Assembly: GCA_021234155.1 (NCBI GenBank)
Contig: JAJEKV010000011.1
Span: forward strand, 19,608,677 to 19,672,676
Origin: Isoetes taiwanensis
Taxonomy: Eukaryota > Streptophyta > Lycopodiopsida > Isoetales > Isoetaceae
Length of the DNA: 64,000 nucleotides
Reading direction: 5' to 3'
Below are positions 7,015-64,000 of the stretch, one piece after another. Both the position numbers and the translations under genes were made by a program. Positions within the stretch are counted from its first letter, which is position 1; every line of letters begins with the position of its first letter. The notes below the pieces were generated by a model that did no database searches, had not been told where the DNA came from, and was given only the letters and a program-made list of their open reading frames with translations.

Positions 7015-7018
7015 CCTA

Positions 7019-7030
7019 GCTCTGATACCA
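7019..7030 (-). other. Primer-binding site, initiator Met tRNA type
   Basis: TGGTATCAGAGC on the - strand, one base from the LTR end; the standard copia PBS complementary to the 3' end of initiator Met tRNA. Confidence 0.9.
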
Positions 7031-7031
7031 C

Positions 7032-7615
7032 TGTTAGAAATAAGCAGTGAATAGAACCAATATCATGTAATAATGTTAGATTTTCTTAGATTGATAATCA
7101 TCTATGTGTAAGAAACACCTCAATCTAATGGCACAAGATGATTTTATATTCAACTTCAACAAAAAACCAATTGTATAACACTAGCCAAGTCACTTCTTCA
7201 ACTTATCATTAACATTGGCAATTATGACCATTGGAAATAATCTTAGCATTACTGTTCATATGAGATCGATGAGGATACTGTAGCTTCAAACTTCAAATAG
7301 GTCATTCAATTTCAAATCGATTCATACCTGCCTCACGATTGCTCCTGCTCATTTCCAATAATTTCGAAACCCCTGTATTACATCTTTATTTATCTTTGCA
7401 GTCCAACGGTCAAGCCAGACCGCCGATTGGCTCTTCATGTCTTCATCATACTGAATCGATTCATTTGAACCGAAATTGGCTCCATTGACGGGTGCTTTAG
7501 GTACTCAATCTTCATCATCGGATCTTAGGTGCTTTAGGTGCTATCTCAACTTTCTCACCTGTCACAGAATTTCCTTGAATATTTTCCCATCTCAATTATG
7601 GCATGAATTCTAACA
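7032..7615 (-). repeat. 5' LTR of the truncated copia element
   Basis: 584 bp bounded by the inverted termini TGTTAGAA (7032) and TTCTAACA (ending 7615), the usual 5'-TG...CA-3' of LTRs. The PBS is one base away. No second copy is present in the window because the 3' half was lost. Confidence 0.85.
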
Positions 7616-11366: not shown

Positions 11367-12206
11367 CTAAAAGATGTGGTGTCTGCGACGCTCCCATATC
11401 GACCATAGGAGCCAACCGGAACCAAGATGAAATGCCCTTTGTTTAGCTGGAGGCCATGTGTTGGGATAGGACGCCAAAAGGATGCATCGGCAGTCCAATG
11501 TACTGGTAAACAAACCTTGTAGCCAAGACCACGCTGGTTGAACCTTAGGACAATCAAAGAGACAATGCTCAAGAGTCTCAACGTCCAAAGGACAGAGCGG
11601 GCATACTGCAGATATGCGAGGATCATAGCGATATCGACAGGCATTAACCCGCAGGCACCTGTGGATAACCTGCCACCACAGTACAGAGACTTTAGGGTGG
11701 AGCAACCTATCCCAAAGCCATCGCCATGTACGACACAAAGTGGGCTGTGGAACATGTAGGTGCCACCCATCTGGCAATTGGAGGGGTTGTGGTGCTAAAA
11801 GAAGGCGATATACTGATCTGACAAATTGCTTGCCTTTGTGAATCATGACAGTCCCATGGCACCCTTTCAGCAACACCAACTTGCACCATAAGAGGCAAAT
11901 TTTCTGCGACCTTCTCCCATAGAGATACATCCCAACGAGAGAGCAGGAACTTTGCTTGAAATTCAGGCCAAGACAGTAGGCGACCCTCCTCATACCATGC
12001 TTGAATAGAGACAACACCTGCAAGAACCCATCGTCACTATGTAAGGGGATGAACTGAGGCTGCCAATGGAGGTGCTGAGGGGTCTGGAGGCAGTGGTGCC
12101 CACCACCATGGAGTCTCCAAGAGGGTGTGGATAGAGGGGCATGGCCAGAAAAGATGTCTGACTGCCTCCCATGCTGCCAACAAGCCACGCAAAAATGGAG
12201 AAGCAC
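11367..12206 (-). pseudogene. LINE ORF2, C-terminal zinc-finger (zf-RVT) region
   Basis: After the second frameshift the frame carries a Trp-rich segment (WDRLLHPKVSVLWWQ) and the zf-RVT signature CPLC...HCLFDCP near its end. A 3' untranslated stretch of about 270 bp follows to the poly(A) at 11092-11063, ending in GGCTTTCGTCCTTC. Confidence 0.85.
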
Positions 12207-13050
12207 TTGGAAAAGGCTGCAGAGTCTGAAATAAAGCCCAAGGTAGGACTGGTTTGACAGCCTTCTTGCCTAGAGGGATACAGTGACCAAGAGCTTGTCT
12301 AAGAAGGCGTGAACCAGGAGAGTCATCCTCACCATTCAGGAGTCTCCAAATGAACTTTGAAATAAGCACTTTGCTCTGCAGTAAGAAGTCCGTCATACCC
12401 AGACCACCTGCCCATTTTGGAAGGATGCACTTCGACCAAGCCACCTTAACCATAGCACCTTCCTCAGTACCTGCACAAATAAAGTTCCGAACTATTGCAA
12501 TAAGCTCACGCACTTTGATCTGTGGTGCTAGCAGTACGGATGCCATATAAACATGGGTACTACTAAGGACTGGCTTGGCCACTGTAATGCGACCCGCAAG
12601 AGACAACTTAGCAGTGGACCACCAGAACAAGTGCTTCTCCAAACCCCTAATGATCTCCTCCCGTGCAGCTCCCATAGTAACATGGATGCCAATTGGAATC
12701 CCCAACAACTGGATGGCCTGTCCATGCGCAAGTAATTTCCATGGATAATCGTGAACACATGCCGGAGCCGGATTATCCAATGTCCACAAAGCTGTACACT
12801 TCTGCCACCCCACAAGAACACCGGAAGCCAGTGAAAAAGTATCTAAAAGCATTTTGGCAGTAGCAAGATTCTCCTCATTAGCGACTAGGAAGAGGAACGT
12901 GTCGTCTGCATATTGATTGCAAACCTCTTGTGTGACGTCCTCCATTGCAAGACCATGGAGAAGTCCCTCTGTCATTGCGATGGTGAATAAATGTGACAAA
13001 GCCTCTGTAACAATTGTGAAAAGCAATGGTGGTAAAGGGCATCCCTGGCG
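12037..13050 (-). pseudogene. LINE ORF2, RT C-terminal half
   Basis: Continues the RT after the first frameshift: GCPLPPLLF, then the catalytic YADD in NQYADDTFLFLV, LLGIPIG and the thumb region (LSLAGRITVAKPVL, WSKCILPKWAGGLG). It ends at a second frameshift near 12100. Typical of plant L1-clade LINEs. Confidence 0.9.
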
Positions 13051-14892
13051 AATACCAGACCGAGTGAAAAGGCATGTGACGGCTCACCATGGAACAGGAC
13101 AGTCGCCCGAGCAGAGATATGCAGCTTCATAATATCTGATGTGAATTGTTCCCCAAATCCCAGTCTTAGCATACAACGGCGCATGAACTCCCTGCTGACA
13201 CTGTCATAAGCTTTTGCAAAATCAAGCTTAAGGTATATAACTGGAAGGTTTTGCCTACGTGCCCAATAAATTCCCTCGTAAGCAGCAGCAACATTATTCA
13301 AAATGCACCATTTTGGAAGAAAACCTGATTGGGTTGTTGAGATGGACTCTGCCAAGATGTCCTTTACCCGCTCTGCAAAAGCCTTGATGAAGATCTTATA
13401 TACGGATGACAATAAGGTGATGGGCCGCCAATCTGAAATAGTCTGAGGATCCTTGGCCTTGGGGATGAGTGAGATGGCACCTGTGTTTAGAATTCTATCC
13501 AAAGCAGTGGACCGCCGAAAGTCACAGAAAGCATCATACACATCTGGCTCCAGCCATTCCCAATACTCCTGGAAGAACTCAATTGGCAAACCATCCAAAC
13601 CTGGGCATTTGCCTCTCTTCAGTTCAAAGACTGTCGAACCTAAATCATCAGCTGTCATAGCTGCCTCTATGGACTCGCGCTGCTCACCAGAGATGATGGG
13701 GAAAATCCTAGATAAAACAGCATCTTGCATTTCTGATTGAAAGGGAAGATGTTTCTCAGCAAAAAACTTCTGGAAGTGGTTATGCAGATGCTGCCAAAGT
13801 TCAGTCGGCTCTGTTAGCATCGAACCATTCGGCAAAAGCAATGAGGACATGGTTGATGTCATGCGACGCCTCTTAGCTGCACGAAAAAAGAAGCCCGTAC
13901 AACGGTCTCCATCACGAAACCAATGCAGACCTGCCTTCACCTTTGCTTGCTGAATTTGCTCCTCCTCCAATGCTTGGATCTGTGCCAAAATATCACGATC
14001 ATGAACACCTGAAAGACGTCCCTGTCGAGAATGGAGCAGGTCCTGATACAAAGTGTCCAGTAAAGCACGACCTGCTGCTGCAGACTCTCGACCCCACTCT
14101 TTGGCAAAACCCCTGACTGCCGCAATTGCATCCACTATGCCAGTCATACCTCGACGTCGGTTGAAGGCAGTTGTCCAAGTATTCTTGCAACCTTCTTGAA
14201 AGTCAGCATCCTTTAAGAACTTCACGTTCAAGCGAAAAGACGTCCTTCCAGGCCGCCGTTGCTGCAGGGGCTCGTCTGAAATGAATTGCAGATGGTAGTC
14301 TGAAACTGAGTTATCTCTGAGACAGAATCGAAAGAGACCTGAAAGTGCCGCAACTGTATCTGTATTCCAATAAGCTCTATCCAACCGAGAGCTTGCGCGA
14401 CCCCCACCAACTTGGCCATTGCACCAAGCGAAGGCACCTTCACCATCAATCTCCGAGAAGTTGCAGTCATGGAGTAGACGAAGCCACTGCTGGCGTTCAA
14501 AACCAGACACCACTATAGAGGTCGCCCCCAACCAATCAGACTCCACTTCCACCATATTGAGATCCCCAACAAGAAGCCATGAAATGTGGCAGCCCAAGCT
14601 GAGTATCTTCCCTCGCAAAGAGGCCCACAGTGAAGCTCTCTGATGAGGTCTATTATGGGTGTGAACATTAATTAGAACATATTTAACCCCTTGTTCCTGC
14701 CATACAATTAGGGCCCAACGACCAAAGCGATCAGCCTGAGTAAAGATGACTGGCAAGGAAGGAAGCCAAGCTATCATGACCCCTGCACTGGCAGAATCAG
14801 CTGCTGCGATAAGGACATTAAACCTGCGACCAACCATGTCTGCAAGCTTTGATACATCTCCCTTACGACACTTATGCTCTTGAAGACATACA
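12972..14892 (-). pseudogene. LINE ORF2, endonuclease and RT N-terminal half
   Basis: The frame begins inside the apurinic-like endonuclease (CLQEHKCRKGD-type start at the very edge, so motif E survives), with GDLNMVE, a SDYHL near the domain end and NVHTHNRP in between. A helical spacer follows, then RT: GKCPGLDGLP, IPKAKDPQTISDWRPI, GFLPK and the catalytic-palm LDFAKAYDSV. The frame is lost near 13040, just before the expected RQGCPL block. The enzyme nicks target DNA and primes cDNA from it. ORF1 is absent because of truncation. Confidence 0.9.
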
Positions 14893-16170
14893 AACTGATG
14901 TTGTAAAAGGTGGTTAGAGCATTCTTGAAAATTTACTTCTCAGGTTTGCTTAGTTATATTACTCAAGAGCTTAGGCTCTAGAATTTGAGTATGGAATTTA
15001 AGATGTTCTATGATCTCACTTGTAGAATTTTGTAGGAGACTCAAGTGTTCCTTGAAACTTTTCAAGTGAGTATTAGCACAAAAAAGGTTTAAATTCAAAA
15101 CGTATGATATATATTTAACAAAATCTGGACTTATTCAAATCTAATAGTAATACTTCACGGATGCACTGATAAGATTATACATACAAATTTTAACTCTTTT
15201 CGATTTTAATAATTTTATTAATTTGTCTTTAAATCAAAAGTATGATGTTTACTAAAGCATAAAATCAATTTCTAGACTAGTCTTTCCATCAATCTATTTA
15301 GAATTAAATTTTTATTTATGAAGAACTATATATGATTAAAATATTGTCTTTTCAAAATATCTAGGGAATGTTTTTTGTTGAAAGTATTTAAATGATTACG
15401 TTTATATTAAATAATTTATCTTTTCAATAATAAATTATTTAAAATTTTGCTATTAAAATATAAACTTTATGATTTAATAAATTTCAAACTAAAATTTGTC
15501 TTAAAATAGTTTTAAAAGTGCTAAGAGTCTGTAATTGTAAAATCCTTATAATAGTTTAAGTCAATCGCTTATCAAAATGGCTTATAATGTTTGGACAAAT
15601 TGTAATTGCAAGGTTCCTTCACAAATTGTAATGTTTGGACATCTGTATGTCCATGACATTGTTATATTTCGTATTTTATCTTTGTTGAGTTCGAATTGAA
15701 TTTGCAGCATGTTTATGCATTTAGAATCATAGGGTGTTGGGGATGCAGTAACAAGTTGGCGAAATATGTGAAATACATTAACTTTGAGAATGAGTATGTG
15801 ATCAAGCCATCGTGGTTAATCTGAAAGGCTGAATTGTTGGATGTAGAAAATTGAAAAAGAATTTAGTAAGTGACTTGGATACATTGCTATGCAATAGAGT
15901 TACTGTTCCAGCTAAGTGAAGGATAGAATGCTTTTGTTTTTGTTTTTAACTTGGTTAGTATCATGAGAGTAATATATTAATGTGTATTGTGTCTAAAAAC
16001 ATGGAAAGAAACATCTATGAACATCACACTAAATACGAGATAAAAAGATGCTATTTAAAATAAAGGTGATGTCGTTTAGGGAGTAGTTCGAGGCCAATAT
16101 ATTGTTGGATTCAGTTGCTCATAGATTGATCTTATTGTAGAGCATTAAACGTTTTTGAAATGTTTAGAAA

Positions 16171-37041: not shown

Positions 37042-38775
37042 TGTTATGAACCCCTAATTTTAGTACCAAGAATTTCGATTTGTATTCACATCAACCATCA
37101 GAGTACACAAAACAAGTACTGCCTCCCACGAGGCTAAATACATGAAAGCCACATATACAGATAACAAGACGACAACATAGATAACTATATACACACCTAT
37201 ACTCCGCCAGCTATCAAACAGCCTCCACAAGCTTCCACGTGTTTGTAACATACATATGAGTTATCCAGTAGTGTCAACATGAAGCAATGACTGACGGATG
37301 CAAGTACACACATATGGAATCCACCACATGCACCATAGCATCTGCCAAGCAGACACACCCTGCCATATCTAAACAGTACGTCGTCTAGAACCCCCGCGCT
37401 GGTGGATCCAGTATGAGAGGGAAACTGCAAGCATTATAAGAACTTAGGCCGTCGGACTGTTGGCTACATTTATCACCATCCCATACCAGTGACGGGTTTC
37501 ACCGCACCAACGTTCCCATGATTCTTAATTAGACAAGCTACGCTTATCTATCCAGATGCTATACATAAAACTCTCCCATATGATAAACACCTAGTGCTTA
37601 TTTACTCCGCATAAAGGCTCATATAGAGCTCATGATATCAAATCATATATACAGAGTAAGATAAGACACTCTTATAGCACTAGGCTGTCGATGGTCACCT
37701 AGTACCATCCCATACCAGCACTAAGCACCCATCTCACTAGTAATAAGAGGTCTCTTAATGAAACAAGTTTACACTTGTTTCAATACAGGTGAGGGGAGCA
37801 TTAGAAGAAAAAGGCTCGACAGCTCCGTAAAGCATCACCGGCCTGCAGCCTCTTGGTTGCTACTGCAACCTGCTGGCCCGCCAGAACTGGGTAAGCATCC
37901 TAAGCTTAACTCAGCTTATTCTACCGAGCTTTTGTGAGGAAGGAGTTTAGCAATTCATAAGGTCTTGGTTTAAGGTTTAACTCTGGTCCTAGGGAGCAAG
38001 CCCATACCAGTTATCATGAAGCCTTAAAATTACGGTAATCCTTTACCCATTATATTCATTATAGTTAGCTTGCCCAAAGGGCCACAACCGGATTGTATCC
38101 GGCCCAGGACATACCGAAATAAAGCTTATCTACTGCAACTGGGGTTCAGCAGATCATAAACCAATTTCTTCACCTTCGAATTGCCTATCCCTCCTGCTGC
38201 AAATCGGCTCCCTTCTCTTCCCACTTTGCCTTCCGGCTTCCATCTTCTCTGTCGCACCCTGCAACAGGCTGCCCCTTCCTGATCCAAGGCCCTGCCAATC
38301 ATGGCTAAACTACGTGGCACTGCCCCAACAGGGCAGGTGATCCTGATAGATCATAAACCCGGCCCCAGATTCGGCTATTTGGCCGTTGTTATGGGTCCTT
38401 GGTCCAGCCACGTTCAGATGCCCCGATTTTAGGTAGGGTGCTTACACTTTAAAACAATGGTTCTATAGCCATTAACATATGCTAGGCTTTTATTCCATGG
38501 GTCGCATAACCCATTAAAGCATTTCCCAATCATTTAAGCATTAGCCCTCCCTTACATTATTTTCGTAAGGTACTTAGGGTAACCACACAACTATATCCAA
38601 CATTTATAAATAGTTGCGCCCCTAGTCTAAGATCTATCACGGTGCACCATATACTAGACTAGAGAATCATGCGACCAATGATTTCAATGCCACAACATTA
38701 AATCATTATTGTTAGCCCCTAACAACATGCATGCAAATTATACAACCATGGCCTGTAAAATATTTAAGCATAACA
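37042..38775 (-). repeat. 3' LTR of chromovirus 1
   Basis: 1734 bp, ends TGTTATGAAC at 37042 and ...GCATAACA at 38775. Polypurine tract AATTTGGGGGTAA on the - strand lies directly before it (38788-38776). Confidence 0.9.
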
Positions 38776-39276: not shown

Positions 39277-40058
39277 CTATCTCATACGCAATTGACACAA
39301 TCCAAGTGTCACATCTATGCCTTCAAGCATACTTATAGCAGCATCAGTTTTCAGCCCTTCAAAGCCAAGCGATATAGGTCCTCTGGGATTTCTCCCAAAC
39401 ATAGCCACAAATGGGCTAGTTTTGATGCTCTGTTGGAACCCATTATTGTAAGCAAACTCTACAATTGGCAAATAGTCCTCCCATCTGGATTGTTGAGTGG
39501 CTACATAAGATCTCAGCATATCCTCCATAACCTGATTCACTCTTTCAGTTTGCCCATCCGTTTCTGGATGATCTCCACTAGAGAACTGAAGAGTGCACTT
39601 TAATGCAGAGAACAATTCCCGCCAGAAATTTCCAGTGAATTTCACATCTCGATCGCTTACAATAGCTTTGGGCAATCCAAAAATAGGAAATACATGCGGC
39701 ATATAAGCCGTGGCCACCGCCAAGCCATCAGCATTCTTTATCAGAGGTATAAAGCGTGCATAATTTGTCAACCTATCCACAATAACAAGTATCTGAGTAT
39801 AGTGATGCACAGTACGAGGCAACTTCACAATGAAATCCATAGAGATTTCACTCCACCTCTCCTCTGGCATAGGCAGAGGTTGTAAAAGTCCTGGAGTCTT
39901 GCCTCGACCCCCTGACATGTCTGACAAATTTTCACATATTCCTGCACATCTTCTTTCAGCCAGTAAAACATTCTTTTAAGCGATTCATATGTTTTCCATT
40001 CACCTCCATGCCCAGCATAAGGTGCATCATAAAAGTCGCTCAATAATTGCTTTCGCAA
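39277..40058 (-). pseudogene. gypsy integrase
   Basis: HHCC region (GHGGEWKTYESLK ... CQTCQG) at 40058-39905; core with SMDFIVKLP, SDRDVKFTGNFW and HPETDGQTERVNQVMED (D-D-E). A frameshift separates zinc region and core near 39900. Confidence 0.88.
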
Positions 40059-40108
40059 AGGTCCACAACATGAACATAGATACGTCCCTTATGATAGCAG
40101 AGTCCATT

Positions 40109-40786
40109 CTAGATATCCCAAGCATCAGGTAACTTGGATAGATGCTGCATACTCAAAATATAGGCATCTAAGTCATATGCTTGTCTAATCTGCGACAACA
40201 AAGCAATTTCACATTTAACCATCACATTTACTTCTCGAACCCTACAAAGAGCATCAGCAATAGGAAGATGTTCAACATGAAAAGGAAATTGAGAAAGAAA
40301 GTCCAACCACCTTGCTTGCCTTGGACTTACTTCAGCTTGGCTTTGCAGGAATTTCAACGGTTTATGATCGGCATAGACCACAAACTCACACTTGTTGCGG
40401 AGATAATGTTTCCAGACTTTGAGCGCATGAACCATTGCCAGTAACTCCTGCTCATAGGTGGAATAGTTCTTCTCAGCAGCATTGAGTTGGCGATTTTCAT
40501 GCGTCACCACCCTTCCATCCTACATGAGAACAGCACCAATGGCATAACCACATGTGCGTCTGTGTAAACCTCATAAGATTTACTCATGTCTGGGATCAAC
40601 AAAATAGGCGCTGAGGTGCTCTTTAGCATATCCATCCTGCTGCTGCTTCCCCGTCCATTGCCAATGGATATTACTTTTCAACAACATAGTTAGAGCAGCT
40701 GCAATCTTGGCAAACTTCCAGACAAATCTGCGATAATAGCTGACTAACCCCAATAAACTACGCAACTCAAATACATTCCTTAGCAC
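40109..40786 (-). pseudogene. gypsy RT thumb and RNase H
   Basis: 40786-40580 carries LRSLLGLVSYYRRF (RT connection). 40510-40109 carries RNase H with LNAAEKNYSTYEQELLAMV, YADHKPLKFL and RQARWLDFLSQF. Degrades RNA in RNA-DNA hybrids. Confidence 0.88.
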
Positions 40787-40837
40787 TAGCCAAGACTGAA
40801 TTGCCTCTGTCTCCTTGGGATCTACAGCTACACCTTC

Positions 40838-41764
40838 TCAGATACAATGTGGCCCAAATATTCCACCTGTGCACTTTGACATCTTTGCATACAACTTATG
40901 CTGTTTGAGCAGAGTTAGCACTGAATGCAAATGATCCAAATGCTCGTCTAAGGTTTTACTATATACCAAGATATCATCTAAAAATACTTCAACAAAAGTA
41001 TCAAGACATCCTGCAAAAACCTCATTCAACATTCTGGAAAAAGTAGCAAAAGCATTCATTAGTCCAAAAGGCATCCCTAAAATTCAAAATGACCAAAGAT
41101 GGTTCTGAAGATAGTCTTATGCACGTCCGACTCCTTCACCCTTATCTGGCATAACCACTGCGCAAATCCAACTTAAAAAAATACTTAGCTTTTGTTAATC
41201 TATCAATAATCTCATCAATCCTAGGCAAGGGGTACCTATTCTTGATCGTAATCTTATTCAAGGCGCGATAATCAATGCACATCCGCATTGATCCGTCCTT
41301 TTTCTTGACTAGAATGCAGGAGCACCATAAGGGGATTTGCTAGGTCTCACAAACCCTTTGGCTAATAGCTCATGAACCTGCTTTTTAACCTCCACTTGTT
41401 CTAATATGGACAATCTATAAGGGCTACGAAACACAGGTTTGGATCTAGGCTCTAAATCAATCTCATGTTCAATCTCTCTACCAGGGGGAAGACCTTCAGG
41501 CAGTTCCTCAAGAAACACATCCTGAAATTCATACAACAGATCCTGCAACTCTCTTTGGCCTTTTGAATTCTCCATGACCTCGTTATCAGCGTTCATATGA
41601 CAACACTCAAAAGCAGGATAACATTCATCAACAAATAAAAGAAAACATTGATTGGAAGGTTTACGTACTAGTTTCTTGACCTGAAGCAACGGCACGATCT
41701 TGGAAGCTCCCGTCAAAAGACTTCCTTGCAAATATATCTCACATCTATCATGCTTCAGAGTCAC
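40838..41764 (-). pseudogene. gypsy reverse transcriptase
   Basis: N-terminal part 41764-41309 with LPEGLPPGREIEHEIDL and the PYRLS...[14 protein letters not shown] block. The next part is broken. 41074-40838 has MPFGLMNAFATFSR and the catalytic FLDDILVYS. Copies cDNA from element RNA using a tRNA primer; this copy is interrupted by frameshifts near 41310 and 41080. Confidence 0.9.
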
Positions 41765-41776
41765 CTGGTGAGTATT

Positions 41777-42280
41777 TCAATCTATTGCAATAGGCTTAAC
41801 TCGCTGCAACCATGTTATCCCCAACACCACATCATATCGGCAAACATCCAAAAGGTCAAAATCAAGCTTTTCCTGGTAGCCTTGAATACAGGGCATCCCA
41901 ACAGCTTTACGATCCTCCACCTGAGAATCGTTCACAAAAGGCCCATCTACCTTATACTTATTAGTTTTTACACATGGTAGGTGCAGTTCTTCCACCAACT
42001 TAGAAGAGATAAACATGTCAGAAGGGCCACAATCCAATAACACCACAATGTTTTGGCCCATGATTCTGCCCAAGAATCTAATAACCCATCCAGCAAACAT
42101 ATCCGTGATGTCCTTGCTTGTGGGCTTATCCAGCGTGCATAGCTCTTCCATGGCAATGACTGAAATCATCTTAGATTCCAATATTTCTTCAGCCTTTTCA
42201 GTCACGTTTGCTTTCTTGTTATCAGTTTTCTTGTTCTGTGGCTGGGAGCATTCACGACTGATATGCCCAGGTCTCCACAT
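41777..42280 (-). pseudogene. gypsy aspartic protease
   Basis: Begins with the end of the knuckle (GHISRECSQP), then about 80 residues of linker and the active-site strand VVLLDCGPSDMFIS, where the family's D-S/T-G-A is D-C-G-P. The substitution at the second position argues the copy is inactive. It ends LGITWLQ, the conserved flap region. Confidence 0.8.
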
Positions 42281-43290
42281 CTATAGCAGAAAATCCCCTT
42301 TCTGGGACCATCAGACTTAGAGTTCGCCTTACGCTTCTTGGACTCTCCACCTGCAGACTTAGGCTTAGGCTGCTCAAACTTTTTCTTCTTGAAAAACCTA
42401 TTTTTCTTCTTTGAGAACTTCCGGGACATCCTCTTAAAGGACTCATCCTCTTCCCCAAGCTGACGAGCCAACATTGCTGCCCTCTCAAAATTCTCGAGCT
42501 TCAATCCGATTATCTGCTTCTTGAGAGCAACACTGGATAGACCACCTAGGAAGAAATCAACCTGCCGAGCCTTGGACAAGTCTCCAACCCTGTGGATATA
42601 ACCCCGTACCTTATTGATATAAGCACTAAGAGAACATGTCTGCTTATAGTACTGCAGCTTCTCAAGCGAGCATCATGCTGAGGTGCGTATTCCCCAATAA
42701 AGTATTTCCTGAAATCAGAGCAGGTATTCACCTCCTCCTTCATGGTAGGACCATTCCACCAGCTATAGGCATCCGATTTCAGCTGCATCTGCGCAATAAA
42801 CAATTGCGCCTTATCGCCTTTGTTGGTAGCCTCAAAAAAGGTCTCAAGCTTGTCAATCCAAGCCATGGCCTCCTCAACAATTCCCATCCCAATCCGGGAT
42901 CTTCGTGCATTCAAGACTGTGTATGCCTTCCTTGCTCAATCTGGAACTCTTCAGTGACTGCTGCAGGTACATCCGGGTCCACCACCACAACTGCCGGAGA
43001 CTTCCCTTTCTCCGCAGACTTCCCTAAGCCATCCTTGCTAGCAAGGGTCTTCAATACAGTTCTCATAGCAGTCCGAGCGTCTAATACTGCCTTGAAGCTC
43101 TGCTGCACACCCAGCAAGTCCTCACCCCACTTCATCTTCATGGTCTCTAGGTTCTTCTGGGTTTCCTGTACGCGAGCAGCCAGCCCTCGTACATCAGGTT
43201 CCTCCTCCATAGGAATCACCTGTTTCGCTACAATATGCGCGCCTGCACTAGTCTTGCCGTGCTCCATCTCAGCTACTTCAGGTCCAAGCC
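42202..43290 (-). pseudogene. gypsy gag with CCHC zinc knuckle
   Basis: Frame 1 (43290-42911) encodes an acidic N-terminus. After a break, 42914-42546 has WIDKLETFFEA and YSWWNGPTMKEE, the retrotransposon capsid (retrotrans_gag) pattern. After a second break, 42579-42202 has a Lys-rich linker and FCYRCGDLG, a zinc knuckle whose second half (H-I-S-R-E-C) is shifted into the next frame. Gag packages the element RNA. Confidence 0.85.
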
Positions 43291-43311: not shown

Positions 43312-44920
43312 TGTTACGAACCCCAAATTTTAGTACCAAAAATTTCGATTTGTATTCCATCAGCCATCAGAGTACACAAATCAAGTACTGCCTCCCACGA
43401 GGCTAAATACATGAAAGCCACGTACATAGATAACAAGACGACAACATAGATAACTATACACACACGTATGCTCCGCCAGCTATCAAAAGCCTGCACAAGC
43501 TTCCACGTGTTAGTATCATGCATAAGAGTTATCCAGCAGTGTCAACATGAAGCAATGACTGATAGACTGCAAGTACATACATATGGAATCCACCACACGC
43601 AACAGAGCACCTGCCAAGCAGACACACCTCGCCATATCTAGATAGTACGTCGTCTAGAACCCCTGTGCTAGTGGATCCAGTATAAGAGAGAAACTGCAAG
43701 CATCGTAAGAACTTAGGCCTTCGGACTTTGGCTACATCCATCACCGTCGCATACCAGTGACGGGTTTCACCTCACCAACGTTCCCATGATTCTTAATTAG
43801 ACAAGCTATGCTTATCTATCCAGATGTTATACATAAAACTCTCCCATAAAATAAACATCCAATGCTTATCTACTCTGCATAAATGCTCATATAGAGCTCA
43901 TGATATCAAATCATTTATCCAGAGTAAGACAATACACTCTTATAGCACTAGGCTGTTGATGGTCACCTAGTACCGTCCCATACCAGCACTAAGCACCCAT
44001 CTCACTAGTAATAAGAGGTCTCCTAATGAAACAAGTTTACACTTGTTTCAATACAGGTGAGAGGGCATTAGAAGAAAGAGGCCCGACAGCTCCGTAAAGC
44101 ATCACCAGCATGCAGCCTCTTGGTTGCTACTGCTACCTGCTGTCCCGCCAGAACTGGGTAAGCATCCTAAGCTTAACTCAGCTTATTCTACTGAGCTTTT
44201 TGTGAGGAAGGATTTAGCAATTTATAAGGTCTTGGTTTAAGGTTTAACTCTAGTTCTATGGGCAAGCCCATACCTTACCGAAATAAAGCTTCTCTACTGC
44301 AACTCGGGTTCAGCAGATCATAAACCAATTTCTTCACCTTCGAATTGCCTATCCCTCCTGCTGCAAATTGGCTTCCTTCTCTTCCCGCTTTGCCTTTTGG
44401 CTTCCGTCTTCTCTGTCCCACCCTGTAATAGGCTGTCCCTTCCCGATCCGAGGCCCTGCCAATCATGGCTAAACCACGTGGCATTATCCCAACAGAGCAG
44501 GTGATCCTGTCGGATCATAAATTCAGCCCTAGATTTGGCTACTTGGCTGCTGTTACAGGTCCGTGGCCCAGTCACATTCAGATGCCCTGATTTTGGGGTG
44601 CTTACACTTTAAAACAATGGTTCTATAACCATTAACATATGCTAGGATTTTATTCCATCGTCGCTTAACCCATTAAAGCATTTCCCAATCATTTAAGCAT
44701 CCCCCCCCCGGTCATTATTTTCATAAGGTACTTAGGGTAACCACGCAACTATATCCAGCATTTATAAATAGTTGCGGCCCTAGTCTAAGATATACCAAGG
44801 TGCACTATACCCTAGACTAGAGAAACATGCGACCAATGATTTCAATGCCGCCGCATTAAATCATTGTTGTCAGCCCTAACAACATGCATGCAAATTATAC
44901 AACCATGGCCTGTAAAATAT
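43312..44920 (-). repeat. 5' LTR of chromovirus 1
   Basis: About 1609 bp; starts TGTTACGAACCCC at 43312. Lacks the last 12 bp of the partner LTR and about 103 bp in the middle (partner 37990-38115). Confidence 0.9.
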
Positions 44921-45391: not shown

Positions 45392-45580
45392 TTAGTAACG
45401 TGCTGCTGCCCGAGATTCAGATTTTGCAAAATTAGCAATCCCTCTAGCCACTTGGGCCAAAACATCTGGATGTCCTGATTTTGCCATCACAAGTAGAGCT
45501 CTTATGCCATCACAAGCAAAGCTTTTCATATGATACATGTTCTCTTCATTTATTTTCGATTTGCAAAGCCATTGGGATGC
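45392..45580 (-). pseudogene. Orphan exon of an ARM-repeat kinesin (KIN-U/ARK type)
   Basis: After an acceptor (AAATCAG) 62 codons are open to TAA. The segment IRALLVMAKSGHPDVLAQ, then VARGIANFAKSESRAA, is the armadillo-repeat signature of plant ARK kinesins, which control microtubules in tip-growing cells. Motor and other ARM exons are not present nearby, so this is a duplicated fragment or one exon of a gene whose rest is displaced. The normal next exon would begin with Gly; here a stop follows, supporting a fragment. Confidence 0.7.
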
Positions 45581-45785
45581 CTGATTTACGACTTGTTAAA
45601 TAGATAAGTTAAATGGATGCATCGAAGTGTGATTCTTTTGACTGAATGTTGGTAAAATGAACAGCTTTCTGAAATACCTTAATAGCTTTGTGTGCGAACG
45701 AGATTATTAATAAATAGTGTTATGGTAAATGTTAATTTAACTAAACCTTAACCGCTCATGTCTGAATGCACATTTTAAATATTAT

Positions 45786-45808: not shown

Positions 45809-45827
45809 AGGAGGTGTGCAACGTCTA

Positions 45828-45889
45828 TTATGTGGCCGAAATTTGAAATGGTATTTTTATAACCTAAGGTTTTCAGTGGTTAGTATGGG
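45828..45889 (+). repeat. Left 62 bp direct repeat of the HUH locus
   Basis: Starts attatgtggccgaaatttg; matches 48167-48228 with about three differences. Confidence 0.9.
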
Positions 45890-46189
45890 TATTCGTATGA
45901 GAATACGGTAGGAAATGACGGCGGCACTATCGATTAAAAATATGGGAATCTAGGGCTGGCATCTGTGCCTGGGTTGGTCGGAACTGGGAGTTCTTACGTA
46001 GTCTGGAGATGGGTATGGCGGAAATGGCGATGGCAGCGCTGGGTATGTGACTTGGTTCTGTCATTGTTTCTGTTTTGGGCCACAGAATAAGGAGGGGTTG
46101 TCTTGGTTGTTCGGAAGGCCATCTCCAGTTTTGTGTCAGCGGATTTCTGTCACAGGTAAGCCAGGTTTGCTGCTTTTATTTTGTTTGTG

Positions 46190-47230
46190 ATGTCTTTGAA
46201 GAGAGCAGCGAAAAATGGGAAGGGTGTTGCTTGATATGTGCCTCCTTCTCTGAGTTCTTTAAAAATTGGCTCCTCTAATTCTGGAAAGCCCCAGACTGGG
46301 GAACATGCTGCTGGGTTGTTCTCTTTGGTCAGGATTGGAGTGCCATAGATGTCAGTGTCACCTTGGGTTTTGTCTGGGCAAGATGTGCCCATGAGTTTTT
46401 ATGATGCTCTTGTTGGCTTTTGCAATTGAAGGTGTTTGGCTGGAGCTGTGGCCATGGAGCGTGGTGCAAGTGTTGATCACTTGCACTGCCAGGCTGTTTT
46501 TAGAGCTAAGTTCAAGAGTCCCAGGGCCATGAATGATGATATAAAAAAGGATTTCAATTGGGTTTCAAAACCACCGCGTGTGATTTTGGTATGCAAAGCC
46601 CTTAAAAACACTCGCCTTCATTGTTTTGAAGGCATGATTGGGTACTGTATGAAGGTAGTTGGGAAAGTCCATTATATTTGTCATCTCCATAATATGAGTG
46701 AAGCTGCTATTGAGAAAGGAAAAGATCTCTATTTGAGATGGGGAGCTGGTGATACGAAAAATCTTGTTGTGCTTGACAATAAGAACCTCTTGAATCGAGC
46801 TGCACATTTTGTAAATTACCATAGGAATCGTAGGTTGACTGCTAGTCTATTGTATACCTTGGCTAGGATGATTCGATCTGGAAAATTTACCTTGTCTAGT
46901 TCCTGGATCATCCCTTCAAACACGGCCCATATCAATGAGCATCGTGTTCAGGCTGCATGGAGAGTGCCGCTAAATCCTAGTCACTGCATGACATCCAACA
47001 TGCGGACGATTCTATTTGGCCAGCAGGCTTTGTGCCTGTGGAGAGGAATGGGCCTGGGCGCAGGCGTTATTGGGATGATGCTATTCCTGCTGATGAGAAA
47101 GACAATAATTTTGAGGATATACATGATGCTTCTTATAGTGCAGATAGCCCTGATGTCGTGATACTTGAGCTTGGCGTAGATTATATCCCTATGCACAAGG
47201 GTGGTCGTACCATGGCTGTTGGGTGATGAA
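46190..47230 (+). pseudogene. HUH (Rep-like) endonuclease gene, decayed; Replitron candidate
   Basis: One frame runs from an ATG at 46190 to about 47005 with three in-frame stops (TGA 46232, TAG 46346, TGA 46427), then shifts to another frame to TGA at 47226. Motif II of HUH endonucleases is clear: VDHLHCQ (His-Leu-His at 46478-46486), which holds the metal. About 50 residues later comes GYCMK (46640-46654), the Y-x-x-K of Rep motif III, with the Tyr that attacks DNA. A basic and aromatic region follows (LARMIRSGKF, WIIPSN). HUH enzymes start rolling-circle replication or transposition by nicking one strand. No helicase motif is seen nearby, unlike Helitrons or CRESS viruses and as in Replitrons. 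An endogenised CRESS-type sequence is the main alternative. Confidence 0.7.
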
Positions 47231-47299
47231 CTTGCTTGGGTGTTGGTTGTACAGTTTGAGTTTCTTTGTTTTCATGCTTTTATTTGTTGTATAGTTGCA

Positions 47300-47725
47300 G
47301 GAGTCATGGAGACTGATCTGGAACCAGTTGTTGGCATGGACGAGCCTGTTGTGTCCTTGCCTGAATATTTAATTTCATCTGCCATAGATGCATCCCATCC
47401 CGACCCTATTGTGTATTCAGCTGAACCAGAGGCAACATTCTCCGCTCAGGAGTTTGTTAATAATGTTATTCAAGTTGGGACAGGGCACATAGGATTGCGG
47501 CATCACTGCGTTTGCTATTCTACATGCCCATTGACAGTGCTATATCTATTGTGGAGTGGGAGCACATAGGTGTGCCTGTTTCTGAATTGCACATATTGCA
47601 TTCTCATATGAGCCTTGCAAGGGCATTACTTGTGCAGGAGATATGTCAGTTAGATGCGGTGATAAGGCATGCGCAAAGTGGCTCGGCTATGAACTCGTTT
47701 ATGTTTATGTTTGTGTTTTGTTAGT
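47300..47725 (+). pseudogene. Possible C-terminal exons of the HUH gene
   Basis: After an acceptor (TATAGTTGCAG at 47299) the frame reads METDLEPVVGMDEPVVSLPE, acidic, and in another frame near 47500 LRLLFYMPIDSAISIVEWE and LARALLVQEICQLDAVI, helical. Same strand and immediately downstream; likely the tail of the same gene, broken by a frameshift near 47490. Confidence 0.45.
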
Positions 47726-48007
47726 TTGTTATTTGTATATGAAGTTCATGGAGGTTGATCTGGATTTGTGTTGTAGTGCTTGCAGGAGCACCTTGGTGTT
47801 GGGGAGCTCAACTTCGTTCACCTGGTTGAGTGTCCTTCAACATTGTAAAGTCTGTTTTGAGTTAATGGATAGTTGTGGTTATGCTGGTTGTGGAAAATGC
47901 TTTGTTAATGATTATGAATAAACTGAAATTGGTTAGGGACCATTATGAGGTCACTTTTTATTGATGTTTCATTATGTAAATAGGACTAACTTGTTTGATG
48001 TGTTAGT

Positions 48008-48062
48008 GGGCTTCGGCCCCTGGGCATAGCACGCATTCCCTTTTGTGGGATGCATGCTATGC
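48008..48062. repeat. Two adjacent hairpins at the 3' side of the HUH locus
   Basis: GGGC-TTCG-GCCC at 48008-48019 and a larger hairpin 48024-48062 (arms GCATAGC...GCATTCCC and GGGATGC...GCTATGC, one mismatch and one bulge). A GGTTCGACTCC element follows at 48091. Confidence 0.75.
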
Positions 48063-48166
48063 TTGGATAAGCATGGGAATTTATACTGGGGTTCGACTCC
48101 CTAGGCGCATTGTAATTTATGTGGTGGCTGCTGCTTGAATTGTGTGACCCAAATTATGCTTATAGG

Positions 48167-48228
48167 ATTATGTGGCCGAAATTTGAAATGGTATTTTTAT
48201 AACCTAAGGTTTCCAATGATTAGTATGG
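48167..48228 (+). repeat. Right 62 bp direct repeat of the HUH locus
   Basis: Matches 45828-45889. The two copies are 2339 bp apart and bracket the endonuclease gene. Confidence 0.9.
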
Positions 48229-48999
48229 CTCTAACGGGTAAGTCAAATACAATAGATTTGACCCATCTTGACTTGGATTTAAGGGCTGAAATTTGATAAG
48301 GTGGAATATGTTGTGCAATATGTTTGCATCGAATGCTAAAAAAAACTTTGAAATTAACTCTTAAATTTAATTTAATATAACGTAATCAATGGTGCATAAG
48401 ATCCATAAATACATACGAAATTTCAACCACCTTGAAATTTCGCCCTCTTTTAGCTTTCTTTTAAACGGCGAAATATTCTGTTCCCATCGTGGCGGCGTTT
48501 CTGGGCGGCGCCGCTTCCCTGTCCCTCTGTTTCTGTTTCATGCTCCTAACCCTGTTTCTATTTCTGTTTCAGCGCTCCTCAATCTGTTTCTGTTTGCCAT
48601 GAAAATGCATGCTTCAAATACTGCATCCAAACTCCGGCAAGCCACAAACTACAGAAACCGTTTGAATGGAGGCTTGCTTTTCTGATTTTTTTTCCTTCGT
48701 TGCATGAATCGGTGGCCATATTAGACAGAATCGAATTGAATCAAGGTAACTCTTGCTTATTCTTCATTTTTTTTCCTTCTTTATGGCTGCAAAGAGAAGT
48801 TCTAGAGTTCAAAAACGTATTTAACCGGGCTTCTTCCCAAGCAGCCATAGACTTCTTGATGGCGCCCAAGCTCCAGTCTGCTGCTCTATTACATCCAGGC
48901 TTCATCAAAATCCAACATCAAACGAACTTTCTAAAGCAAAAATCAAGCTCCAGCCTCAAGAACGGACTAAATTTCAAGCTGATTGAAATTTCGTCGGAG
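48229..48999. other. Upstream region of the 49168 gene, no coding recognised
   Basis: Contains short frames only and a Pro/Phe-rich pseudo-frame (48389-48685). Confidence 0.4.
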
Positions 49000-49112
49000 A
49001 ATTTTAGGGACCTGTAAAATTTCTTGTGGAAATTTTGAGCTGACCTGGCGGCGCCACTCGCTCGCCAGGTCAGCTCAAAATTTCCACAAGAAATTTTAAG
49101 GTCCCTAAAATT
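49000..49112. repeat. Near-perfect 113 bp foldback upstream of a gene
   Basis: Arms of about 50 bp (49000-49050 and 49063-49112) pair with a single indel around a 12-base GC-rich loop. The arms start AATTTTAGGGACC and end GACCTGGCG. It sits 55 bp before the start codon. Confidence 0.92.
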
Positions 49113-49120
49113 ACTCCTTC

Positions 49121-49167: not shown

Positions 49168-50065
49168 ATGGCGCCGGCAAAAGGCATCTGTTCAAGGCTA
49201 GTTAGGTACATGTCTGGCGAAGTTTCCATTTCTGCAGCTCCGGCAAAGCCCAGGCTTGCGTTTGAGAAGAGCAACTATGAAGCAGAGCTGGGCAAGAAGA
49301 ACGTGGCTTTGTCTGTTGCAGAACAGAGTCGGGAATACAAAGAGAAGGTGTCCAAGATGCGGAAAAGATTTATTCGTGAAATGGAGCGGAAGAAGGTGGA
49401 GATGATGAGAAAGGCGCATGTCGATCGTCAGTTGCTTGAGGAGGCCAAGAAGAAAAGGTTGGCTTTGAAGGCTGGAAAGAGAGAGATTCGTGCTCTTCAA
49501 GTTTTGCAAGAAAAGGAAGCTCTTCGCCTTCGGCTGGTACATGTTACCGCTTGAATGGTTAGGTCAAGTTTTTTTTTTCTTTTTCTTTTGTGTGCTGTAG
49601 GTCCTGTTATCTTTGTTCTTGGCCAGCATTATGTGTTGTTAGTAATAAGTTATTCATTTGCTCTCTAGGAAGCAGAAAGAGCTCAGAGGGTTGAACGAAG
49701 AGAGGTAAAGGAACACCTTATTGCTTCCCGGAAAGAAGTACGCCGGGAGAAAATTAGACAGCAAAGCTCTACATGGGTAGATGAAAAAAACCTTGAATTA
49801 AGGGTTTTGGAAGCTATGGCGGATCCGATTAAGTTAATTCCACCACCGGAATTTTTCTATAGCAGTAGTATCGAACTACAACAAGCCGCTATTAGGTTTG
49901 TATTCTTACAATCCGAGGGCATATTTTTTAGTTGGGTTCCACGTTGATCCTTTTTTTCTAATGGACCACCAAATTTTTTACAGAGACGATGAATCGGGGG
50001 TATCTGACTCTGATTATGAACAATGGGGAAGTTCGGATGAGGAAGATAGCATAGGCAACGATTAA
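49168..50065 (+). CDS. Three-exon gene for a basic coiled-coil protein, probably organelle-targeted
   Basis: Exons 49168-49536, 49669-49895 and 49984-50065, with introns bounded by CTG|GTACAT...CTCTAG and TTAG|GTTTGT...TTACAG. Phases 0 and 2 fit, and the frame is intact to TAA. The product is about 225 residues. The first ~30 residues (MAPAKGICSRLVRYMSGE) are Arg/Ser-rich with no acid until Glu18, like a mitochondrial presequence. Residues ~45-130 form a Lys/Arg/Glu-rich coiled coil. Around residue 155 is the WVDEKNLELRVLEAMADP block, which resembles a conserved plant family of uncharacterised mitochondrial or ribosome-associated proteins. The C-terminus is acidic (SDSDYEQWGSSDEED). Function not assigned. 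Best-preserved gene in the window. Confidence 0.85.
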
Positions 50066-60235: not shown

Positions 60236-60568
60236 TCATGAACTCACGGGTATTGCTTCTCCAAATCTTGCTTTAATACCCACGTCAAGGTCTTCCAGCG
60301 GCAAGTGTTTCCACTTGACCAAATACCGGGAGGAACCGAGACCTCCTAGTCTTCTTGAATGACTTATCAAGAAGTAACTTCGTGCACGATTTCCACTTGC
60401 TCTTTTCGTCATTTCCAACAAAGTTGGAGTATCCAAAACCTCCTCGGGGTTAGGATTGTGCCTTTTAATAAACTTACGTGGAAAACCTTGTGAACTTTGA
60501 GATGGGCCTAAGATCCAACTTGTGGGCTTGGGAGCCCACTCTCCAAAATCTTGAACGGACCAGCCCAC
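60236..60568 (-). pseudogene. Chromodomain region of chromovirus 2
   Basis: Overlaps the integrase end. RYLVKWKHLPLEDL is the chromodomain core with its aromatic and acidic positions; the expected T-W that follows is shifted by a frame change. Preceded by an RARSYFLIS stretch. Confidence 0.8.
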
Positions 60569-61401
60569 CTAGGGGCAAGCTTCTTGCAACTCCCAATCCG
60601 AAGCTTAGCTTGCTTGACCTTGATCTTCAACCACACGCTATCGCCTACTTTGAACTCTCTTACGGTCCTGTGCTTGTCGGCTACACTCTTCTGCCGACTT
60701 CTTGCTGCTAGGAGGTAACCCCTCACTTCTTCCACCAACTGCTGCATATCTCCTAGCATTTGTTGGGACACCTCAACCTTTGACACGGGATTGTGCCAAG
60801 TGTCCGGGGTTAAGCACTGGTACCCGTAATTTACCATGAAAGGAGACATCTGAGATGACTCCTGTTTGGCACTATTGTAGGCGAATTCCACCAAGTGGAT
60901 GTACTCCTCCCACTTGGACTGCTTATTCCACACAAAGCTTCTAAGCATATCTTCAATGATTCGATTCGTCCTCTCCGTCTGACCATCTGTTTGGGGATGA
61001 TAAGCTGTGCTCATGGAGAGCTTCGTCTGAATGGTGCTGAAGAGATCCTGCCAAAAAGCACTCATAAACTTGGAATCTCTATCAGATATTATCTCCCGAG
61101 GCATGCCATGGAGCCTAAAAATCTCCTTCACAAATAGCTTGGCAGTATCTAATGCTGTGTCAGTAGTTCTACAAGGCACAAAATGTGCCATCTTAGATAA
61201 TTTGTCTACTACGACCATCAATGCATCCTTGCCTCGAAGAGTCTTGGGGAGTCCTGTGATAAAATCCATACTTACCACTTCCCACTTCGCATTCGGCACT
61301 GCTAGAGGTTCCAAGGCACCTGGAATTCGAAGCTGCTCCGCTTTGGTTTGCTGGCACAACCCGACACTTTCGCGAATATATCTTGCTATCTGCTTCTTCA
61401 T
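60508..61401 (-). CDS. Integrase of chromovirus 2
   Basis: About 297 codons open: VSMDFITGLPKTL, DRDSKFMSAFWQDLF and AYHPQTDGQTERTNRIIED give the D-D-E core. The GPY module (SCKKLAPRWAGPFKILE) is near the end, after WLKIKVKQAKLR. The zinc region lies in a separate frame to the right (61401-61470). Longest intact domain of this element. Confidence 0.92.
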   Translation of the reverse strand: MKKQIARYIRESVGLCQQTKAEQLRIPGALEPLAVPNAKWEVVSMDFITGLPKTLRGKDALMVVVDKLSKMAHFVPCRTTDTALDTAKLFVKEIFRLHGMPREIISDRDSKFMSAFWQDLFSTIQTKLSMSTAYHPQTDGQTERTNRIIEDMLRSFVWNKQSKWEEYIHLVEFAYNSAKQESSQMSPFMVNYGYQCLTPDTWHNPVSKVEVSQQMLGDMQQLVEEVRGYLLAARSRQKSVADKHRTVREFKVGDSVWLKIKVKQAKLRIGSCKKLAPRWAGPFKILESGLPSPQVGS

Positions 61402-61504
61402 TCCCGGCGGAAGTAGCTACTTCAAATCTTGAAGTAGGTCTTCATAAACCCTGCATGCCCCTCAACTATTGGGCTGTTGTGTGTGTCATGGAGGATTAGC
61501 TTCC

Positions 61505-62027
61505 TTACCCCGGCGATTCGGGCACACACAACTTATGCTTATGATACAACAAGTTGCCTTCCTTCTTATAATGCTTGAAGGCTTCGCTCCTTATCTGTTC
61601 TAGCCTCTCTAGAAAGGCTTTCCCATACCTCCTTGAAATCACCATCGGATGGTAAAGTCTCCTCAATTTTCTTGCCATACCCGCTCGAAAGAGTTGATAT
61701 AGCATTACAATGAATTCTGGTTTCAAGAGGTCTTCTAGAAAGAGCATCGGCGACCACATTCGACTTACCTGGCTTATAAGCAATCTCAAAGTCATACTCT
61801 TCTAGGAATTCCATCCACCTCCTTTGCCTCAGATTCAGGAGTGGTTGGGTAAAAATGTATTGGAGGCTCGGTGATCGATCTAACCGAAACTTCCTCCCAA
61901 GCAAATAATGCCTCCAAATACGAAGAGCCCTGACAATAGCTAGAAGTTCCTGATCATGGGTTGGATAGCGCTGCTCGGTGTCGTTCAACTTCTTGGAATC
62001 ATAAGCTATTACCCTTCCTTCTTGCAT
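61505..62027 (-). pseudogene. RNase H of chromovirus 2
   Basis: MQEGRVIAYDSKKLNDTEQR, YPTHDQELLAIVRALRIWRH and the YKPGKSNVVADALSRR end, in overlapping frames with a shift near 61790. Typical gypsy RNase H. Confidence 0.9.
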
Positions 62028-62227
62028 AAGGACTCCACCTGTTGCTATCTTACTTGCATCTGTTGCTACTATCTTGTCCTTGTCTGGATCTCAAGCGTAA
62101 CTAGCAATCGGTGTCGTTGTTAAGGTCTCCTTAAGCTTTTCAAATGAAGCTTGAACATTTTCTAACCAATGTGTTCTCCAATCTTTCACCTTAACACTCT
62201 TAGTGAGGTCCGTCAAAGGGGCCCCAC

Positions 62228-63264
62228 TTAGCGAAGTCCTTCACGAACTTTCTCAGAATAACCCGCCGGACCTAGAAAGCTTCTTACTTCCGCCACATTC
62301 TTTGAGCTGGCCAATCTACTACCGCTTCGATCTTTTATGGGTCGGTGGAGATTCCTTCCCGATATGACATGGCCCAAGTACTCCACTCTTTCAGTAGCAA
62401 AGTGGCATTTGGAGAGCTTTCCATACAAACGATGCCGCCTCAACTTTTCTAACACCCTTCTCAAATGCTGACTATGATCTTCGATGGACTTGCTGTAGAC
62501 TAGAATGTCGTCGAAGAAAACAATGACAAACTCATCTAGAAAATCCCTGAAGACGTCGTTCATGAGGCGCATAAAAGTTGCTGGAGCGTTCGACAATCCA
62601 AAGGGCATTATCAGAACTCAAAGTGACCATACCGCGTTCTGAAGGCGGTCTTATGGATATCCTCTTCTTTTATTCTTATTTGGTGGTACCCTGACCTCAA
62701 ATCAATCTTGGAGAATACCTTTGCTCCTTGGAGCTGGTCCATTAAATCATCTGCCCTTGGCAAAGCATACTTGTTCTTTATCGTCTGTTTGTTGAGCTGG
62801 CGATAGTCTATGCACATTCTTAAATTGCCATCTTTCTTCTTCACGAAGAGTATGGGTGCTCCAAAAGGAGACACACTTGCTCTAATAAAACCGAGCTCAA
62901 GCAATTCCTGGAGTTGCTTCTTGAGCTCAATCAACTCCGGTGTGCTCATCCTGTATGGTGCCTTGCTGGTAGGCTTAGCATCTGGTGCTAATGTGATCTC
63001 ACACTCCACACCCCTATAAGGTGGTAGCTGCCGGATCTCATCCGGAAATACATCCTTGAATTCTGAAATAAGCCTAGCTACTGGCTTGGGCAATTGCTTT
63101 CCCTTTTGATCGTTTCCATCCTGCTTATTGGGCTCAATTGCCTCCAATCTCAAGATGTAATCCACCTTATTTCTTTCTATACTTTTCTTTAACCGCTTCA
63201 AAGAAATACACCGCATAGAAGAAGCCGCCTTCTTACCTCTCACTATGAATTTGGTGCCGCCCAA
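62228..63264 (-). pseudogene. Reverse transcriptase of chromovirus 2
   Basis: 63264-62611: [50 protein letters not shown] and [15 protein letters not shown]. After a one-base shift at about 62610: MPFGLSNAPATFMRLMN and the catalytic FFDDILVYS. Only this shift and one near 62300 break it. Confidence 0.92.
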
Positions 63265-63811
63265 AGGCCGTCATGGCGACTTCATTGCGGTCGCAGTCGA
63301 TCATGGCTTTTGCTGGCTTTAGGAACTCCATTCCTACTATAAGGTCATACCTTCCAATCTCCATGACCTCTGCCCCCATCGGCCACTTACTTCCACTAAG
63401 GTCTATGTCGAATGTGATCCTCCTCCCCTTAGTGTGCCGAATGGCGCCGTTTGCCATAGCAACTGGCCTTGGCTTAGACTTCAATACCTTGTTCTTCATT
63501 AGGGCAGCCAGCCTAGGAGAGGCAAAGTTATGAGAGCTACCTGTATCTATCAATACTAGATATGGACTGCTATCTGTGATCCCCTCAGCCGCAATGACTG
63601 TTGACTGACTTTCAATGTCATCTGACTCAATGTTTGCACATATGTGGCACTCACCATCTATGAAGTCCTGGGCCTCATGCTGGTCGTCGTCTTCATCCGC
63701 TCGTTGGTGAATCCCAATCCATAAGCTCTGCCAAGGCTGCCTGCATGACGAATGGGCAATCATGGGTTCGGTGCCCTGGCTGGAAGCACCTGAAACAAAG
63801 CTTCTTCTCAA
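63233..63811 (-). pseudogene. Aspartic protease of chromovirus 2
   Basis: YLVLIDTGSSHNF carries the D-T-G active site, and YDLIVGMEFL the flap. The frame overlaps the gag knuckle frame, consistent with a frameshift between gag and pol. Confidence 0.9.
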
Positions 63812-64000
63812 TACATTCCTGTCTCTTCTCTTTCGTCAGGCTGTCTAGAATACGCTTTAACATGCTGCCCCCTGATGCATTCTGCGGCTTACGGTCCCCA
63901 AAGTTCTTACCCTGAGCTCTCCCTTGCTGCTGGCCTCCTGATGGCGTGGTTGCTGATTGCTTACTCATTCTTTGCCCTTTGGTACCGGCCCCGTTGACCT
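63693..64000 (-). pseudogene. gag zinc-knuckle region of chromovirus 2 (cut by window edge)
   Basis: Gln/Gly-rich linker, KEKRQECIEKKLCFRC and the CCHC knuckle CFRCFQPGHRTHDCP. The N-terminal capsid lies outside. Confidence 0.85.

Follow-up and report, generated by a model that had tools for sequence, protein, structure and literature searches.

A degraded Replitron copy in the lycophyte Isoetes taiwanensis and its better-preserved relatives in the same genome

What does an HUH/Rep-type endonuclease gene broken by stop codons represent in the genome of a vascular plant? The question is raised by a 64,000-nucleotide stretch of Isoetes taiwanensis contig JAJEKV010000011.1 (hereafter the window), in which an earlier note had placed such a gene at 46190..47725 and named it as a candidate Replitron. 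Replitrons are defined by one catalytic tyrosine (Y1) in a YxxK motif, and the group has one founding active element, from Chlamydomonas. We conclude with high confidence that the window holds the inactive remains of an old Replitron insertion; the element is a DNA transposon of ~2.5 kb whose transposase is an HUH (Rep-type) endonuclease. The proposed frame is real and lies on the + strand; the span attributed to it had to be divided, into a transposase relic at 46190-47226 and a second coding segment that accounts for the rest, to ~47694.

The transposase relic (+ strand) ends in ...MAVG and contains three stops and one frameshift. A profile search, the check on which the earlier note had staked its reading, returned a Replitron HUH match: with its stops written as X, the frame 46190-47000 (+) matched Pfam family PF21859 (Replitron_HUH) at 8.9e-19, with 68.5 bits against a cut-off of 28.5, over positions 5-127 of the 128 in the profile, and none of the other five reading frames matched this family (0/5). 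Both motifs that had been picked out in the sequence are present on the + strand, His-Leu-His at 46478-46486 and Tyr-Cys-Met-Lys at 46643-46654; the latter supplies the candidate catalytic Tyr (codon 46643-46645) together with the Lys at +3. The spacing, which had been put at about 50 residues, is 53 from the second His to this Tyr. We scored 19 single alanine swaps in the window frame against PF21859, 10 of them at control positions. The second His (6.0 bits lost), the Tyr (6.1), the Lys (4.3), the Glu of MERG before HUH (4.2) and the Gln after HUH (4.6) are strongly conserved profile columns; smaller losses were seen for the first His (2.5), the Asp before it (2.0), the Gly before the Tyr (1.4) and the Leu of HLH (0.2). 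Nine of the 10 control swaps lost 1.2 bits or less, and the tenth, the Tyr of VHYIC, lost 5.3. For the C-terminal family Replitron_C (PF21860), the window and three of the six other copies sent to Pfam gave sub-threshold scores in the right place and order (12.8-14.6 bits, where the cut-off is 27); it was not listed for the remaining three. Protein database searches with the window transposase gave no match, and an AlphaFold model built from the single sequence, without relatives, was uninformative (pLDDT 34).

The three in-frame stops (46232 TGA, 46346 TAG and 46427 TGA, on the + strand), which we viewed as codon types only, lie upstream of a stop-free piece, 46430-47158, that by itself matches PF21859 at 2.6e-14 (54.1 bits, profile 29-127). 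Residues beyond the third stop raise the score, and the frame was therefore once open through that stop. The frameshift lies near 47020, where the other copies are longer than the window by 4 bases (20/25), 3 bases (3/25) or 6 bases (2/25); the window's own length was found in 0/25, so that no other compared copy shares the shift. About 25 other genomic matches do follow the shifted frame of the window, at least as far as query residue 228; two of these (L027 and L028) are set apart from the majority by a separate indel. The open frames of L011, L013 and L018 terminate in the MAVG that also closes the second frame piece of the window. L006, the closest of the compared copies, is separated from the window by a dS of 0.124 with a dN/dS of 0.58, a ratio that would be expected after loss of function. 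The stops, the private frameshift and this ratio agree with the earlier description of the copy as decayed.

That description had carried a prediction of better-preserved relatives, and the genome contains them. When all 1,658,258,908 bp (1110 contigs) were searched with the window protein, 150 of 4341 first-look candidates were scored, all of them at E <= 1.6e-95 and the window among them, so the genome holds at least 150 scored copies; by hand count the matched stretch is free of stops in 97 of the 150. The window copy is dead, with many better-preserved relatives in the same genome. For closer comparison we used 25 places besides the window (L001), namely L002 and L005-L028; L003 and L004 coincide with L027 and L028. 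Five of these (L002, L005-L008) came with the search, and the other 20 were fetched by region. Conservation of the motifs among genomic copies had been the second point at stake, and in segments taken by tblastn similarity with the motif ignored, HLH is intact in 24 of 25 copies (QLH in L006), the Tyr in 25 of 25 and the Lys in 24 of 25 (Asn in L010). All six other copies sent to Pfam gave PF21859 over profile positions 1-127/128, the whole HUH domain. Median dN/dS of the transposase is 0.07 (range 0.02 to 0.98; 279 of 300 pairs, the rest being too short or saturated), in a sample whose 20 region-fetched members were hand-picked mostly from the top and are all stop-free in the matched stretch, a choice of similar, open copies that pushes dN/dS down and favours open frames. 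Against the window copy, dS exceeds 0.75 or is saturated in 19 of 25 copies, and despite this high dS the first 200 residues of the transposase are 84-92% identical. High or saturated dS together with a conserved transposase points to long-lived transposition.

The limits of the element were drawn by homology to these copies, which begins at 45827 and stops at 48348-48353 in the furthest-reaching ones, L006 being alignable over 45827-48352 at 89.5%; the degraded element thus occupies 45827 to ~48352 on the + strand. Its left terminus, ATTATGTGGCCGAAATTTG..., is the first member (45827-45888, +) of a 62-bp direct repeat. Searching with the first 203 bases yielded 402 candidates and 41 matches, of which 40 were scored. 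The left end is sharp, since the match begins exactly at the base equivalent to 45827 in 18 of 19 loci besides the window (one of the 19, L039, coincides with L024). The 60-mers upstream of the 19 loci are mutually unlike, save for four on contig C1033. There, at ~1.70-1.83 Mb, four Replitron left ends (L040, L042, L045 and L046) with shared flanks lie within ~125 kb, and this group is a locally amplified duplicated region.

The second member of the 62-bp repeat lies at 48167-48228 (+). At 95% identity and a distance of 2340 bp, the pair could be taken for a long target-site duplication or for the leftover of two adjacent insertions. We regard this as improbable and rejected it, because the homology of the copies extends beyond the right repeat to 48348-48353; moreover, four other copies (L006, L010, L022 and L024) carry a second left-end-like stretch of ~60 nt inside their right ends. 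Shorter stretches of this kind (30-32 nt) occur in L009, L012, L018, L019, L021, L023 and L027. The 62-bp repeat is better read as the left terminus and a copy of it near the right end than as a target-site duplication, and the terminal repeats are putative recognition sites of the transposase.

The right tip of the Replitron is heterogeneous. Among 18 other copies in which a right end was found, 15 have CACCC-type tails, typically of ACACCCCAAATGATAAT units in varying number, which end at differing points inside these repeats; such a tail is absent from L008, L010, L016 and the window copy. Target-site duplications of 3-8 bp showed no excess over shuffles in 15 copies, with a doubtful right tip in L009, L013, L019 and L027, and no empty site turned up. 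An 8-bp candidate terminal direct repeat was not above chance. At one place, L028, the element adjoins a shorter element exactly where CACCCCAAATG meets ATAATGTGG, which could hint that the end may itself serve as a target. Genome-wide, the exact 21-mer spanning this junction is present a single time, at L028, which gives no indication that head-to-tail junctions are common in this one form that the search covered. Another place, L029 (G000:C1078:11577200-11583900), consists of head-to-tail units of ~2.6 kb that are 93% alike, plus a part unit at 90%. We rejected a clean concatemer for this array because its units hold ~370 bp unmatched to the L011 element, and it therefore reads as a segmental (tandem) duplication.

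Between the transposase stop and the right end lies a second conserved coding segment (47300-47694, +), of ~138 codons in other copies and frameshifted in the window near 47483. It is present in whole or in part in 24 of the 25 other copies. With a median dN/dS of 0.18 (220 of 276 pairs; maximum 1.57, in one closely similar pair), it is constrained as coding sequence, and it gave no Pfam match above the cut-off. In most copies viewed by eye, a GT...AG pair of matching phase is present, L018 being without the acceptor. The segment could be a downstream exon of the transposase gene or a second ORF.

Beyond it, the right end has the makings of a folded structure. We aligned 21 copies over 144 window bases (L009, L023 and L027 were dropped as wrongly anchored, and L002 and L020 gave no match) and drew from them, on the + strand, a hairpin GGGC-TTCG-GCCC at 48008-48019, with 98.8% of cells paired; a long hairpin at 48022-48064, in which three pairs have changed on both sides among copies; and at 48067-48110 an outer stem, ATGAGC/GCTCAT in most copies and partly broken here, that encloses a T-arm-like or box-B-like hairpin. 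The enclosed hairpin reads CTGGGG-TTCGACT-CCCTAG in the window, with CCCCAG as its last arm in most copies. The most conserved part of the right end, CTGGGG-TTCGACT-CCCCAG-GCTCAT, resembles a tRNA T-arm with an acceptor strand after it, and a box B lies within it that fits the Pol III consensus perfectly (GGTTCGANTCC). The exact 25-mer CTGGGGTTCGACTCCCCAGGCTCAT, to which the window copy itself has no match, was counted 186 times in the genome and never when read backwards.

The alignment supports six helices. Standard pairs fill 97.0% of their 789 cells, compared with 33.8-48.5% when partners are slid, a control that favours the helices because they were drawn from the aligned sequences. Double-sided changes occupy 14 cells, a number attained in 1 of 500 shuffles, whose mean was 4.5, and neither the covariation score nor the percentage paired was matched by any of the 500, in a test that related sequences may pass without structure. 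There was no excess over shuffles in pairs with double changes (3 versus 2.5) or in further pair types (19 versus 19.2). G-T pairs outnumber A-C cells (39 versus 12), which suggests that it is the coding strand that folds. ARAGORN found no tRNA in eight copies. Rfam found nothing in the window, and its hits in one copy were both far below cut-off: 10.3 bits for an 18-nt tmRNA T-arm, where 47 are required, and 19.8 bits for a microRNA, where 95 are required. We tentatively propose that the right end is a folded cis-element, made up of the TTCG-loop hairpin, the covarying long hairpin and the acceptor-like stem stacked on the T-arm-like hairpin, which in the coding strand or its RNA copy might be a signal for the HUH transposase or for host Pol III.

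Hairpins near the 3' end also belong to Helitrons, eukaryotic transposons with an HUH nickase, and a Helitron relic that had lost its helicase would account for the HUH chemistry, for these hairpins and for the failure to detect a target-site duplication. We nevertheless consider a Helitron origin very improbable. Replitron_HUH is the sole family matched above cut-off, and the earlier remark that no helicase motif is seen holds at the level of Pfam, which found no helicase family in any scanned coding piece of the element or in the six other long-frame copies; no RepHel fusion was seen. Helitrons have a two-Tyr arrangement and ends of the form TC...CTRR, whereas the Isoetes element has YxxK and unlike ends. 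A second conserved Tyr does lie 10 residues past the candidate catalytic one (24/24 copies; its swap loses 5.3 bits), and this gap presumably differs from the one between the two tyrosines of Helitrons.

A Rep-like HUH domain could likewise stem from a circular Rep-encoding single-stranded DNA virus or plasmid of which an endogenous copy persists. The Reps of CRESS-DNA viruses and plasmids use HUH plus YxxK chemistry, as the Isoetes element does, and a weak link between them and Replitrons has reportedly been noted. Such an origin is exceedingly unlikely here: the Pfam matches include no viral Rep family, NCBIfam gave no match to the window protein, viral and prokaryote contigs yielded no confirmed relatives of it, and the single PHROGs match (0.012), to a family of 62 columns and unknown function, lies outside the HUH domain. 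The defined left end and at least 150 scored copies also stand against it, and neither a capsid gene nor any other viral gene was seen. That the frame is instead a domesticated host gene, as the very low dN/dS among copies might suggest, has next to no probability when copies were scored at 150 places or more, share their left end although the flanks are unrelated, and are accompanied by 186 exact right-end 25-mers; it is refuted for the window copy by its three stops, its frameshift and its dN/dS of 0.58 against L006.

The Replitron reading is thus supported by PF21859 over nearly its whole length, by the retained HLH and YxxK motifs, and by constraint, a sharp left end, many unrelated insertion sites and the hairpins. 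The element belongs to the known Replitron group and lies inside its known host range. Liverworts, mosses, lycophytes and ferns are already among the hosts given in the summary in PMC10741241, which weakens the earlier suggestion that Replitrons are scarce in land-plant annotation. According to the same summary, they measure 900 bp to 4 kb, with terminal or near-terminal direct repeats of 5-11 bp and target-site duplications of 2-8 bp (PMC10741241). The Isoetes element, at ~2.5 kb, falls within this size range, and it shares with Replitrons the PF21859 endonuclease and the lack of a detected helicase. Its host, a lycophyte, is a non-seed plant. Its copy number is high, as that of Replitrons is said to be. 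It differs from the summarized elements in its longer end repeats (30-62 bp versus 5-11 bp), in the lack of a detected target-site duplication (3-8 bp searched, versus the 2-8 bp reported) and in a C-terminal domain under the Pfam cut-off, and it adds to what that summary describes a conserved coding segment and an array of right-end hairpins (PMC10741241). The word "replitron" was not found by word search in the Isoetes taiwanensis genome paper (PMC8566536), and among the papers in which the search did find it, none has Isoetes as its subject by title.

The surroundings of the insertion include both host genes and other elements. Less than 1 kb downstream lies an intact-looking gene for the mitoribosomal protein mS26 (49168-50065, +; exons 49168-49536, 49669-49895 and 49984-50065, with borders set by eye), whose product has plant mS26 as its best solved relatives (PDB 9evs_V, 1.5e-8) and gave no match in a protein database search. 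A neighbour of this kind fits a plant nucleus. Directly upstream of this gene is a MITE-like inverted repeat (48996-49117; 55-nt arms, 12-nt spacer). On its other side, the Replitron adjoins an armadillo-repeat fragment (45392-45592, -; PF00514 at 0.02, below cut-off), which we take to resemble an ARK-type kinesin exon and which is a candidate gene remnant or duplicated exon. Further away are Copia-, L1- and Gypsy-type retroelements, the Gypsy naming partly by eye, at ~3347-7062, 12037-14939, 39277-42672 and 60508-63835 (all -), with long frames in the Copia and L1 elements. A direct repeat of ~1.6 kb (37042-38763 and 43312-44920, 89-92%) flanks the Gypsy-like frames and probably represents their LTRs. 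A long GTGGTG-rich simple repeat at 2160-2640 has several open frames and implies no gene.

By analogy with HUH transposases, a transposase of the window type most likely acted by nicking and single-strand movement. The protein would bind ATAATGTGGCCGAAATTTG, the terminal sequence that stands at the left end and recurs near the right. Its tyrosine would nick one strand and remain attached to the 5' end, and a single-stranded DNA copy of the element would leave for insertion at another site, with the coding-strand hairpins at the right end perhaps marking where the strand is recognised or ended. We know of no structured origins of such a kind for Replitrons; if our reading of the right end is true, Replitron ends would be structured origins. 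Collectively, our results describe a vascular plant with at least 150 scored Replitron copies, the conserved ends of which offer concrete substrates for testing a helicase-less HUH transposase in plants.
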